Translations under genes and position numbers: made by a program
Shown here: piece by piece, positions 4,223 to 16,215 of the stretch
Layout of the letters: every line of letters begins with the position of its first letter
Position numbering within the stretch: position 1 is the stretch's first letter
Notes under the pieces: model-generated
Seen by the model: the letters and a program-made list of their open reading frames with translations, nothing else
The model's database searches: none
Told to the model about the DNA's origin: nothing
NCBI GenBank assembly: GCA_021378535.1
Contig: JAACJV010000011.1
Coordinates: 1-33,121, forward strand
Direction: 5' to 3'
Source: Ureaplasma sp. Hg1
GTDB taxonomy: Bacteria; Bacillota_I; Bacilli_A; Mycoplasmatales; Mycoplasmoidaceae
Length of the DNA: 33,121 nucleotides

Positions 4223-6874
4223 ATGTCAGAAACAAAAACGAGACCAATATTAGAACGTCAATTAACAAGAAAATTAATTGATGAAATTTCAGATAAAGAT
4301 GATGCCTTAAAACCTTTATTAAGAATAAATAATTTAAATAAATATTTTATGAAACAAGGGGCATATTTTAAAGCCGTAAACGAAATTTCGTTTGATGTTT
4401 TTCCTGGCGATTTTTTTGGTATTATTGGTGAATCAGGTTCAGGAAAATCTACCACTGGAAAAACCATTATCAGATTATTTAAAGCTTCTGGAGGGACAAT
4501 TCTTTTTAATGATAGATTAATTTCACAGAAAAAAATAACCAAAACTACAAAAAGATGATTAACAAGAAATATGCAAATGATTTTTCAAGATCCAATGTCA
4601 TCATTAAATCCAAAGAAAAATGTGTTGAATTTAATTTCTGAACCATTTAGAATTAATAAGCACATTCGTCATATAGCTAATGATATTATAAAGGATATGC
4701 ATCGAATTAATCCTTTCTTTCAATACACTTATAAATGAGAAGATCATTTAATTACGCAGGTATGAGCAACAAATTATTATCAAGGTTTAATTGATGTTTA
4801 TCAAAAGTACATTGAATTATATAAAAACTATAAAATTGATGATGATAATAACGGAAATGAAGAATTACTAATATTTTTAGGTCTTATGGAGGATATGGAA
4901 GAAGAATATAAAGAAATTAATGCTTCCATTTATCAATATGCTAAAGATATGAAAAATATTTTTATTAAATCTTTAGATAAATTTAATAAGCATGAAAACG
5001 ATAAGACTGAAGTAGAATTATATGAATGTTCAAAAGACCTTGCTAAAGCTAAAAAACTAGTTAAGGACTCACAAGTATATTTAGATCTAAAAGATAAAAT
5101 AAAGATTCAAAAAAAAGAGCTTAAGGAATATAAGAAAAATATTAAAATTACTTATCATGAACAAAATAGTACTTATATTAATTCCTTAATCAGTTCATAT
5201 AAATCAGATATGAAAGCAATTAAACAAGAGCGTAATTTGACGCCTGATGTTTTCAAACATATTCACCACGAAACACAATACGAATCAGCAAAGGCAACGC
5301 ATGAATTATTCAAAGAATTTGGAAAATTTATTTATTTAGAAAATGATGATATTTCAGAATATGTACAAATAATTTCTGAAGAAGTAGATAAAATTTATCA
5401 ACCAGTTATCGAGAAAACAATCGAACTACAAAAATTGGATAAAGAACGTATTTTATTAATTGGAATGCATAAAGCAAAAAAAGATCTGACTGAATTAGAA
5501 GCTAAAGTTTTAGAGGAAGGTGTTTTCCAACTAGGCTCAAAAGGGAAAGAAATTAATGAAATTATTGATAAACTAACAATTAATAAAAAAGAATACCAAG
5601 CTATTGTTACAAAATTATTAGATCTTTTAGAAACTATTAAAAAAGATTTAATAAGATTAAATGAAGCAGATTTTACACAAAAAAATCCCGCTCTTAAAAA
5701 AATGTATAAGAGACTAAAAGAGAAAAACATTAAAAAAGAGAAAAACATTAAAGAAGAAATACATCATTTTGAAGGCGAAATAGATAAGACTCATGAATTA
5801 GCAAGCCAAGAAAAAAAGCGTGCAAGAACTAGTCATGAGCATAAGATTGCATTAGATGATATGGAAAAAATTAAAAAATTATATGCAGAAAAAAATATTA
5901 ATAGGGATGCGTATGCCGCATCTGATGTTAAAGATTTTAATGCAAATAAATTACCTAAAATTATTGCTTCAAAAGAGCAAATTAAAAAATTAAAAGTTGA
6001 ATTTAAACTACAAAAAAAATTATTAAATAAATTAATTAATAAAATTGAAGTAGAGATTAAAAAAATGTCGCCACCTGAATTAGTAAATTCAAGAAATGAT
6101 ATGAATTTTCTAGAGGAATATAATTTACGAAAAGCACATCATATAGATATACACCGTGAACTTTCAATTCGAAAGAAAAATATTAAAGCATATGAATACG
6201 AATTAGATACCGTTAAAGAAGAGGTTGCTTTATATCGAATTATGCGAATTAATTCTTGAGTTTTACTTTATTTAAATCGAAATTTTTTAGAAACAGTATT
6301 AACACGTGAAAGAGTTTATAAAACATTAGAAAGTGTAGGTTTAAAAAACGAGCATGCATACCGTTACCCCCATGAATTTTCTGGTGGTCAACGACAACGT
6401 ATCGTAATTGCAAGAGCTTTAATTACCAATCCTAAAGTGATTATCGCAGATGAACCAATTTCAGCGCTAGATGTATCAATCCAAGCACAAGTTATTAATA
6501 TTATGCAAAGATTAGCTAAAGAAAATGGAATTACATTTTTATTTATTGCACATGATTTATCAATGGTTAATTACGCATGTAATAGAATGATAATTATGCA
6601 CCAAGGTAGAATTGTGGAAAAAGGTGAAACAAACACTATCTTTAAACACCCAATTCATCCTTATACCAAATCTTTAATGAAAGCTGCACCTGAACTATCA
6701 AAAATTCATGTAGATTTAGCATCTTTTAGTGTAGAAATGAATTATAATAAGTATTATGGTCCAGCTAATAAACCAAGTTATTATTCAATTGATAGTAATC
6801 TTGAACATTTAGTTTTTGGAACTGAGGAGCAAATTAAGGAATGGCAAAATACAACCCAAGCTTCGGCGGATTAA
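4223..6874 (+). CDS. oppF: Oligopeptide ABC transporter ATP-binding protein OppF with long coiled-coil insertion
   Basis: This 883-residue protein is the second ATPase of the Opp importer. Walker A is GESGSGKS at residues 69-76 and the Q-loop is FQDPMSSLNP at about 121-130. The signature FSGGQRQR comes only at about 719-726, and Walker B IIADEP has Asp743 and Glu744. The 590 residues between Q-loop and signature compare with roughly 90 in ordinary OppF, so about 500 residues are inserted in the helical domain. The insert is very rich in Lys, Glu, Ile and Leu with heptad-like spacing (long coiled coil). OppF of similar size (about 850 residues) is known in the M. pneumoniae group, so the insertion is a lineage trait. 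Ribosome site AGAGGTGA lies at 4211-4218. TGA codons at 4556-4558 and 6257-6259 are Trp. Confidence 0.95.
5716..5751 (+). repeat. 18-bp tandem duplication inside oppF
   Basis: Two exact copies of an 18-base unit (AAAAGAGAAAAACATTAA) lie head to tail at 5716-5733 and 5734-5751. They keep the oppF frame and duplicate a hexapeptide of the KEKNIK type in the coiled-coil insertion. The unit is short and likely a slippage product, so it may vary in number between strains. Confidence 0.85.
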
Positions 6875-7650
6875 GAACAGGATACCACCAGAGAAGTAGT
6901 TTAACCACCAACATTAATAATAAAAAAAATCGAGATATTTACAATGAAACAAACGAATCAAAGCGCTACCCTAACGGATTAGTACCTTTGATTTGTCTTA
7001 CTGTTATCGGAATTATTGTACTTTTTATAGCACTAGCTTTGAACGGTGGATTCACCACATATTCAAAAATGCCAGATTGAGATGAATTAAATAAATGAAA
7101 TCCAATTTATTGTAACAATTTAGTCACAGATCATCCTCAAATTGATAGTCCTTATAAAACCGATTTGGATAATTATCATAATTATTTAATGGGTTTTGTA
7201 GCTCCGATGAAAACAAATGACGGAACCTGGATGATTCATATTGGAACAGGCGATATATATGATCCAAAAGTTGATTACGATGTAGGGAGTCAAATTCACA
7301 ACAATGTATTCGGACAAAATTGGGGTGATGACTTTGTTTATGCAGCAATTGTTTGTGATTGTTTACTAGTATTTTGATGACTAGGGCGGCAAGGGTTTAC
7401 TGCGTGAGCAAGATTCAGCATTCTTAAATTTAATAGAATGTTTAAAATTAGAAAATTACGTGAAAAAATGCAATTATATGTTATTACTCCAGCACTAGCG
7501 GACGTAACTAATTTAGAAGAATTTAAAATGTTTGAGAAAAAACGTTCAAAATCAACTAAAGCATATTTCAAAATATCTTGTTATGGGTATTTAGTATTTA
7601 CAATTATTGCTATTTTGTTAATGATAATAATGCATTTTGCAGTTTGATAA
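6841..7650 (+). CDS. Hypothetical membrane protein downstream of oppF
   Basis: This 269-residue protein matches no family I recognise. It begins inside oppF, 34 bases before the oppF stop, with GAGGAG at 6825-6830 as ribosome site, so its translation is probably coupled to oppF. The N-terminal 45 residues are polar and probably cytoplasmic. A hydrophobic helix spans about 47-67, then comes a soluble segment of about 100 residues with NWGDDF near its end. A second helix lies at about 165-185 (contains FWWLGR), followed by a basic cytoplasmic stretch, and the third helix is at the C-terminus (about 245-268). Six TGA codons are Trp. Its place in the opp operon suggests an accessory membrane role, but nothing in the sequence proves it. 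Confidence 0.85.
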
Positions 7651-12527: not shown

Positions 12528-12869
12528 ATGAATAATTATCATGTCTTTGTTTTATTGCCGAATTTTCTAATGTTAAAAATAATTAGCATTGAAGATAATC
12601 GGATCATAGATATTAATTACACCGTAACAACCAAGGGTGATAATTTTTATAGTGCCTTTAAAAATGTTCAGATTATTTCTTCTACTCCATTAGTCACTAG
12701 AACAATTTCACATTTCATTAGTATTCGAGGACTTAAAAAAGAGGACTATAATATTTTAAAATTTGTTAATCAACAATTGGCGAATGATGAATCATATGTC
12801 ATAAAAATATATCACGATTATTTCATTAATATTGCTCAACCAATTTTTATTAAGAGAATCTTATCATAA
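12528..12869 (+). CDS. Hypothetical protein, 113 residues
   Basis: A small protein of unknown family. It has no signal peptide and no convincing membrane helix. It is rich in Ile, Asn and Phe with a mixed alpha/beta look. The start at 12528 has no strong ribosome site, 38 bases after the exonuclease gene. It ends 58 bases before the pseudo-MacB gene, whose frame stays open over its 3' end. It could be a real gene or a diverged remnant; the same-strand context and an uninterrupted frame favour a gene. Confidence 0.6.
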   Translation: MNNYHVFVLLPNFLMLKIISIEDNRIIDINYTVTTKGDNFYSAFKNVQIISSTPLVTRTISHFISIRGLKKEDYNILKFVNQQLANDESYVIKIYHDYFINIAQPIFIKRILS

Positions 12870-12897: not shown

Positions 12898-12927
12898 ATA
12901 ATTAATAATATAAATAAAGGTGTTTTA

Positions 12928-14226
12928 ATGTTAAATTTTGAATCTATAAAAAACAAAGTAATTGATCAGTTGGGTGAAGCGGGCTTTAGTTACAAAATAA
13001 AAGATGAATCGATTTGTGTTTTTTACCATGAGAATGTACTCTATACGAACGAAATTTATGGTATTTTACAAGGCCGTAAAAACATTGATGATGGCAATAT
13101 CCTTTTTGATAATATTCCATTCACTGAATTGATTTTAAAAGATCGTATGCGATTTATTAATACTTCTCTAAGTTTTGTCGAAAATGATAATATTTATGAT
13201 GAAAATATTAAATTAAACCAACTTTTGGGAGATACATTAATTATTACTGGTGTGCCTATGGGAAGTATTAAAAACCGTATTAATGAAGAATTGTTATTTT
13301 ACGGATTGTTAGATTTAAGAGATAGAAAAATTAATTCGTTAACTATCTATCAACGGTTATTGGTAACTATGATGGTTGCTACTATCACCTATAAAAAATA
13401 CATTTTTTTTCGTGATGTAGATTTAAAATTAAATAATAATGATGAACTTAAACAATTTGTTAATTTGATTAAAAATATTAATAAAGAACGAAAATTAACT
13501 ATAATTATTTTTAGTAATAGTGAACAATTTAAACGAAATATTAAAACTATTATAGACCTTAAATCTCCAGAGTATTATAAATTTAATAACACTATTTCAA
13601 TTTATAATCGTTATAATTTACCAAAAATAAGTAATCGGAAATTTGGATTTATAAATTTATTTTACGTTATTTGGAATTTAATTAGGGGTTATCGAACACT
13701 CTTATTAGCAATATCTATTTTATGTGTATTGTGCTATTCAGGAATAATTTTTCTATCAACTCAATTGGAATATCAGACACCATCTCCAGAAGCTGTTAGT
13801 ATGGCTTTTTTATCAAGTGCTCAATATAATAAATTAAATGTGACCAATGAAATTATATCTTTAGTAATAGCCTTTACATATATAGCCATCATTTTTCTAA
13901 TTGCTTGTTATATCAAAGTGATTACTGCGCGTAAAAAATTATATTTGAAATATTTACAAATTATAGGAGTGAATCCTTTAATTACTTTTATTGTTATTCC
14001 AATTGTTATCGTTACCACTACAATTCTAATTATTTTATGTAGTTATGTATGTGTAACAATTGCTTTATCAGCCGGCTTGGTTGATGGAAATACAACGACA
14101 ATTAATTGATGACTTTCACTTTATCTTTCAATGGGGTTATTTTTAGTAACATTATTATTATCATTATTACCAATATTTTTAATTAAAAGTAATGTTCGTC
14201 CTTTGAAACGAGATCTAATAAAATAA
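12928..14226 (+). CDS. MacB-like ATPase-permease fusion with degenerate ATPase motifs
   Basis: This 432-residue protein has the outline of a MacB/LolD-type ABC ATPase (residues 1-225) joined to an FtsX-type permease (about 240-432). Where Walker A is expected, before GILQGRKNIDDGNILFDNI, stands FYHENVLYTN (32-41) with no Gly-Lys-Ser. The LSGGQ signature position reads LTIYQR (138-143), and the Walker B region is IFFRDVD with no catalytic Glu. The permease half has four helices with a loop of about 35 residues after the first, as in FtsX/MacB. It probably cannot hydrolyse ATP alone. ATG 12928 with AAAGGTG at 12916-12922 is preferred over an in-frame ATG at 12832 inside the previous gene. Two adjacent TGA codons at 14107-14112 are Trp. 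Confidence 0.7.
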
Positions 14227-14668
14227 CTTTCGAAAGGAATAAATTATTATAATTGCTTATTAAAAGGTTGTTTTAAAGAATAATAATATTCAATGAAAAT
14301 ATTTAAGGGTAATACCATTAAATTATATTAAATTCCACATAAACATTTTTTAAATATACACTACACAAGATAGCAAATAAACTGAGTTATTATCAATGAT
14401 AATTTTTTATATATGAGAATAATTATTCAAGCTTCTATTAATAAAATCTATTATTTCTAATTCTCCATAATGCACATAAATAACTTGAAATTAAGGTTAT
14501 ATAATATCTCAAAAAAATATACTTATATTATATTTTAAAGACATACACAATTAATAGAAACAATTCAGATGCTTAAGCTTAATTGCCTCGAATGAACATT
14601 TAAGTTTTAAAAAGGATTACAATAATACAAATTGACTAAAAAATATATCACTTTTTAAATCAATCCAC
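14227..14668. other. Gene-free interval with small palindromes
   Basis: No ORF with a plausible start is seen here, even with TGA as Trp; stops are dense in all frames. It holds CTTTCGAAAG right after the stop (14227-14236), the hairpin ATTATC-AAT-GATAAT followed by T6 (14389-14409), the palindrome GAATAATTATTC (14417-14428) and TTAAGCTTAA (14573-14582). No T-box motif, tRNA or repeat of other parts of the window was recognised. Confidence 0.7.
14389..14409 (+). terminator. Weak hairpin plus T-run downstream of the MacB-like gene
   Basis: A 6-bp all-AT-rich stem with loop AAT is followed by TTTTTT. The stem is short, so termination here is only possible. Confidence 0.3.
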
Positions 14669-14674
14669 TATAAT
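14669..14674 (+). promoter_or_regulatory. Probable -10 element of lysS
   Basis: TATAAT lies 63 bases before the lysS start, just upstream of a perfect inverted repeat. No clear -35 is seen at the usual distance; TTGACT at 14632-14637 is too far away (31 bases). Confidence 0.5.
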
Positions 14675-14686
14675 GTATAAGTAAAA

Positions 14687-14712
14687 TAAATTTATTTGTA
14701 TAAATAAATTTA
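14687..14712 (+). promoter_or_regulatory. Perfect 11-bp inverted repeat in the lysS leader
   Basis: TAAATTTATTT (14687-14697), a GTAT loop, and AAATAAATTTA (14702-14712) form a perfect hairpin or a dimeric-protein operator. It lies between the -10 element and the ribosome site AGAGGA at 14725-14730. Confidence 0.6.
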
Positions 14713-14736
14713 TAAAAATTTAAAAGAGGAATCACT

Positions 14737-16215
<1,479 letters not shown>

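Follow-up and report, generated by a model that had tools for sequence, protein, structure and literature searches.

Among ABC proteins, the possession of one degenerate site is a common condition. The holotype of the type VII ABC transporters is MacB, in which an N-terminal nucleotide-binding domain (NBD) is followed by four transmembrane (TM) helices, and an extracellular Porter domain between TM1 and TM2 defines the type (PMC5985334). BceA, MJ0796 and LolD, for all of which solved structures exist, are separate subunits in which Walker A, signature, Walker B glutamate and H-loop histidine are all intact. In the heterodimeric exporters with one degenerate site (TM287/288, BmrCD, TAP), catalytic residues are likewise lost in a conserved manner, but the degenerate site keeps ATP and works together with an active partner (PMC7756269).

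The stretch of DNA analysed here, called the window (33,121 nucleotides), comes from a 1.16-Mb draft mollicute genome, and the bacterial family which holds this genome presumably belongs to the pneumoniae/Ureaplasma group. An open reading frame on its forward strand (12928-14226; ATG start, 432 codons, TAA stop) is open under genetic code 4 only, as two TGA codons are read as tryptophan (W395-W396). Its product very probably descends from a type VII ABC protein and is a half-transporter without catalytic activity. The order NBD and four TM helices in one chain is that of MacB (PMC5985334). In contrast to BceA, MJ0796 and LolD, the domain is fused to the membrane part and its motifs are lost. 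The features of the locus are:

12916-12922, + strand: AAAGGTG, plausible ribosome-binding site 5 nt upstream of the ATG (read from the sequence)
12928-14226, + strand: gene for 432 amino acids (code 4), predicted dead ABC ATPase domain and four TM helices in one chain
12982-13581, + strand: predicted pseudo-nucleotide-binding domain, residues 19-218 (profile alignment to BceA residues 14-218; Foldseek)
13027-13053, + strand: Walker A position, HENVLYTNE (residues 34-42) instead of GxxGxGK[ST], lysine replaced by Thr40 (alignment)
13339-13353, + strand: signature position, LTIYQ (residues 138-142) instead of LSGGQ (alignment)
13402-13419, + strand: Walker B position, IFFRDV, catalytic glutamate replaced by Val164 (alignment)
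13516-13518, + strand: H-loop position, histidine replaced by Asn197 (alignment)
13690-13767, + strand: predicted TM helix 1, about residues 255-280 (hydropathy; low-confidence model)
13846-13932, + strand: predicted TM helix 2, about residues 307-335 (hydropathy; low-confidence model)
13930-13974, + strand: RKKLYLKYLQIIGVN, aligned in register with KKxxxxLxxxG, the motif of the loop between TM2 and TM3 of FtsX (hhalign, null test)
13975-14070, + strand: predicted TM helix 3, about residues 350-381 (hydropathy; low-confidence model)
14107-14181, + strand: predicted TM helix 4, about residues 394-418 (hydropathy; low-confidence model)
14737-16215, + strand: lysS, conserved downstream neighbour in two genera

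Descent of the N-terminal half

Searches with the single 432-residue sequence gave no usable Pfam assignment (the best match was a salamander pheromone family, E=0.014) and only weak ABC ATPase matches in NCBIfam (E=3e-4). A profile built from three homologues, none of them with ABC motifs, matched BceA in the PDB (E=6e-8, residues 14-218) and was aligned without gaps through the Walker A region. Because a profile of degenerate proteins alone finds BceA, the relation of this half to ABC proteins is more than chance. With 13 homologues the match to BceA reached E=6e-10, followed by MJ0796, LolD, YtrE and PsdA, with FtsE further down. The top PDB matches thus represent the type VII branch (MacB/LolD/BceA/FtsE), and the best relatives with solved structures, BceA, MJ0796 and LolD, are aligned to profile positions 12-220. 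HHalign of the family profile against an intact NBD-FtsX fusion gave a probability of 97.6% (E=4e-12, 23% identity over 189 columns). The best match outside the family members was an intact NBD-FtsX fusion from a genome of the same class (L232 in G322; E=3.5e-20), and this alignment extends into TM1; in contrast to the window protein, the fusion has kept its motifs (GPSGCGKST, LSGGQ, DEP and SHD) and also carries FtsX repeats and large extracellular domains to which they belong.

An AlphaFold model of the protein, based on an alignment of four sequences, is of low confidence (mean pLDDT 50), and the best 50 PDB matches of this model in Foldseek are all ABC ATPases (probability 1.00). According to profiles and model, the N-terminal half descends from an ABC ATPase of the type VII kind (MacB/BceA/LolD/FtsE-like). 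The preliminary description had recognised a MacB-type ATPase by the order of the segments, and profiles and HHalign bear this out. The structure prediction which it had proposed gave an ABC-like fold in the Foldseek comparison of this weak model, and not a fold unrelated to ABC ATPases.

Loss of the catalytic motifs

The motif positions were compared in an alignment of 13 members and 14 ABC ATPases of related genomes whose motifs are intact. The Walker A motif GxxGxGK[ST] and a signature of the LSGGQ type are present in none of the 13, and these aligned positions are robust; the Walker B Asp-Glu pair, whose aligned position is less robust, and the H-loop histidine are likewise missing from every member. 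HENVLYTNE of the window protein aligns without a gap to GASGSGKTT of BceA. Across the family the glycine-rich loop is gone and the Walker A lysine is replaced by Thr, Ile, Leu or Val; at the same place 13/13 members show a motif specific to the family, whose third residue is Asn or Asp and in which the lysine has given way to Thr or to an aliphatic residue. The signature position reads LTIYQ, LSSLL, LNTLL, LEEIK and others. The Walker B stretch of the window protein is YIFFRDVD, without the catalytic glutamate, and the Asp-Glu pair is replaced by RDV, KLD, KGI or NLL among the members. The losses of Walker A, signature and Walker B glutamate had been noticed before from the window protein, and the missing H-loop histidine is added here. 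Three residues, L138 (the signature leucine), G19 and G56, are invariant in the alignment, the pattern expected of a protein which would have kept the fold but not the chemistry.

The membrane half

Hydropathy indicates four TM segments, all after residue 250. The loop between TM1 and TM2 is short, with about 25 residues in the window protein and fewer in other members, and the predicted membrane domain has hardly any extracellular portion; in contrast, MacB, which hydrolyses ATP, carries a large periplasmic domain at this place. Neither hydropathy nor the low-confidence model gave an extracellular Porter domain between TM1 and TM2.

The assignment to the FtsX-type permeases is weakly supported and leans to the positive side as judged from sequence comparison. 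One member of the family matches Pfam FtsX (PF02687), weakly (E=0.41), and an FtsX HMM built from 31 mollicute domains gave no match to single members. In the profile-profile comparison TM2, the KKxxxxLxxxG motif and TM3 are aligned in the expected register with an HHalign probability of only 26%; the score of 27.2 exceeds that of all 150 topology-preserving shuffles (maximum 22.1) and of the reversed control. The membrane half modelled alone (pLDDT 47) gave no match in Foldseek. Of the FtsX-type permease with four helices described previously, the helices are seen again in the hydropathy profile, and the label FtsX is weakly supported.

Selection on the gene

The nearest relative genome (G001), a metagenome-assembled genome (MAG) of Ureaplasma sp. 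Hg2, contains a syntenic homologue with 80-81% identity, the same frame, the same motif losses and no gaps. Between the two, dN/dS is 0.11 for the whole gene (95% bootstrap 0.08-0.16), 0.065 (0.03-0.11) for the pseudo-ATPase half and 0.18 (0.11-0.27; point value 0.179) for the membrane half. Two further pairs gave 0.20 and 0.30 with both halves alike; as dS is near 1 in the pairs, all these values are to be read as estimates. For lysS, ffh and tyrS dN/dS lies at 0.04-0.07, and for other membrane genes of the window at 0.12 (DUF5378) and 0.14 (6841-7650). The gene evolves faster than housekeeping genes and in this respect resembles the other membrane genes of the window. Both halves are shown to be under purifying selection; the gene is maintained and not rotting.

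The fully open frame reported earlier (432 codons under code 4, gapless in the syntenic homologue) and the view that the gene is maintained rather than junk (dN/dS 0.11, no frameshift) both agree with these results, and a dN/dS near 1 with frameshifts was not found in the window pair. The wording of a decayed ATPase half is right as to the lost motifs but not as to decay: all 13 members share the loss, and the N-terminal half is the more constrained one in the window pair. The loss of the motifs is most simply ancestral, because 13 full-length homologues from four genera are without exception devoid of these same motifs.

Distribution and gene neighbourhood

Thirteen genomes carry a full-length member; they represent four genera (g1, g7, g10 and g11) of a single family, and two members besides that of G001 come from uncultured Ureaplasma MAGs. 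A fourteenth copy (G113), a 3' fragment at a contig end, was recognised by eye only. Some of the relatives are probably from cultured species, for example G035, a complete genome of 1.28 Mb. Outside the family no full-length member was found among 320 genomes of the order and 395 sampled from the class; those outside matches that were opened individually, a minority of all, were intact ABC transporters. A candidate from a different family within the order (G283, E=2.5e-17) was rejected as a relative, as an ordinary intact ATPase gene is followed there by a separate permease gene. No paralogue was found in the genome of the window. In the gene tree the members group by genus, weakly in the case of g11.

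In six genomes, all from g7 or g10, the gene closes the ATP synthase operon: it lies on the strand of atpC and begins 3-19 nt behind it. The spacing is only 3-4 nt in two g7 genomes (L161:532-1803 and L159:494-1759), which suggests translational coupling with this operon. In g11 the gene lies directly upstream of lysS and divergent from mnmG, and in g1 it is also located upstream of lysS. One genome (G109) has the order atpC, the gene, one membrane ORF and lysS, and in two others (G035 and G069) lysS likewise follows nearby. The simplest reading is an ancestral order of atp operon, this gene and lysS which was later broken in different ways. A match to atpD is absent from five g11 genomes with a full-length copy (G029, G112, G114, G115 and G116; drafts, 74-93% complete) and present in five other g11 genomes, and many atp operons of the family are without the gene.

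The conserved neighbours seen in the 5-33 kb examined per locus do not include an active ABC ATPase; one such ATPase lies near the G035 copy and an oppD/oppF pair upstream in g1. The draft genome of the window has 29 ABC_tran matches over the cut-off and one detected FtsX locus, on contig C39, with two FtsX domains and an ATPase of its own, and an active NBD-4TM fusion was not found in it.

Some further observations concern the surroundings of the gene. A 510-bp AT-rich stretch without an ORF (14227-14736) separates it from lysS; the corresponding gap in the sister genome, of about 104 bp, can be aligned to the lysS-proximal part of this stretch only. An ORF of 113 amino acids (12528-12869) has no significant Pfam match and shows 84% identity to the sister genome with a dN/dS of 0.096. 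In an OppF-like ATPase of 883 amino acids (4223-6874) the half with Walker A is separated from the half with the signature by a very large insert. No Rfam family reached the gathering score across the 33-kb window.

Possible functions

The whole reading preferred here, with a probability of roughly 0.5, is that of a catalytically dead type VII half-transporter which persists as a scaffold or sensor in the membrane, independent of ATP. The grouping of the genes by genus and the absence of the motifs from all of them suggest a single loss that preceded the split of the four genera. The protein would work without ATP hydrolysis, most likely without ATP, and its pseudo-ATPase half may serve in the cytoplasm as a platform on which its own membrane domain docks or dimerises. 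The result, reached by elimination, would be a scaffold or sensor and not a pump; this mechanistic part is tentative, somewhat less probable than its opposite.

A pseudogene of a MacB-like transporter in the process of being lost might be expected from the absence of every catalytic motif and from an evolution faster than that of the neighbours lysS and ffh. However, dN/dS is well below 1 in three independent pairs, frameshifts and gaps are missing in the window pair, full-length frames are kept in four genera, and the dead half is no less constrained than the remainder; on dN/dS and conservation this reading was rejected, and its chances are minute. Rather unlikely is a non-catalytic half of a mixed ABC complex, paired with an active ABC ATPase encoded elsewhere. 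Conserved degenerate sites are well known from heterodimeric exporters (PMC7756269), and the many ABC_tran matches in the draft genome offer possible partners. Yet the known degenerate sites still hold ATP, whereas this protein has lost all motifs; the likeness to heterodimeric exporters is an analogy only, with no partner visible for the window protein. The structural partner of an active ABC ATPase proposed in the preliminary description found no support, as the loci examined have no such ATPase among their conserved neighbours, the genome yielded no active NBD-4TM fusion, and its sole detected FtsX protein sits elsewhere with its own ATPase.

The position behind atpC in the six genomes of g7 and g10 would fit a protein that assists the F1Fo ATP synthase or its assembly and whose gene is the last one of the atp operon. 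In g1 and g11, however, the gene lies outside this operon, and many atp operons of the family do without it; the g11 copies in draft genomes without an atpD match (74-93% complete) indicate that the gene can persist after the ATP synthase is gone. This speaks against a role strictly tied to that enzyme, and such a factor is improbable. As unusual modes of nucleotide binding are possible for an ABC fold, motif loss alone does not exclude binding. A remodelled P-loop which still binds nucleotide or another small ligand, making the protein a ligand sensor, would agree with the family-specific motif at the Walker A position and with the strong constraint on the N-terminal half in the window pair. 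With glycine-rich loop and lysine gone, classical phosphate binding is very unlikely, and this alternative, too, is held to be quite improbable. A wider form of the ATP-independent scaffold or sensor reading is improbable at present: the ATPase of an ABC half-transporter would have been lost in a common ancestor of several mycoplasma genera, and the gene, at first the final one of the ATP synthase operon, would have been kept for a role tied to membrane energetics or organisation; the members would form a true pseudo-ABC family and not the degenerate half of a working pump.

Significance

No published description of such a family was found in a limited search of the open-access literature, and its novelty rests on this literature and on the absence of a matching family model. 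It is unusual that small genomes, which shed genes they do not need, maintain under selection a fused ABC half-transporter in which no motif is left. It offers a clean case for asking what the ABC fold does without ATP, and it illustrates that an open frame which has lost its motifs is not necessarily in decay.
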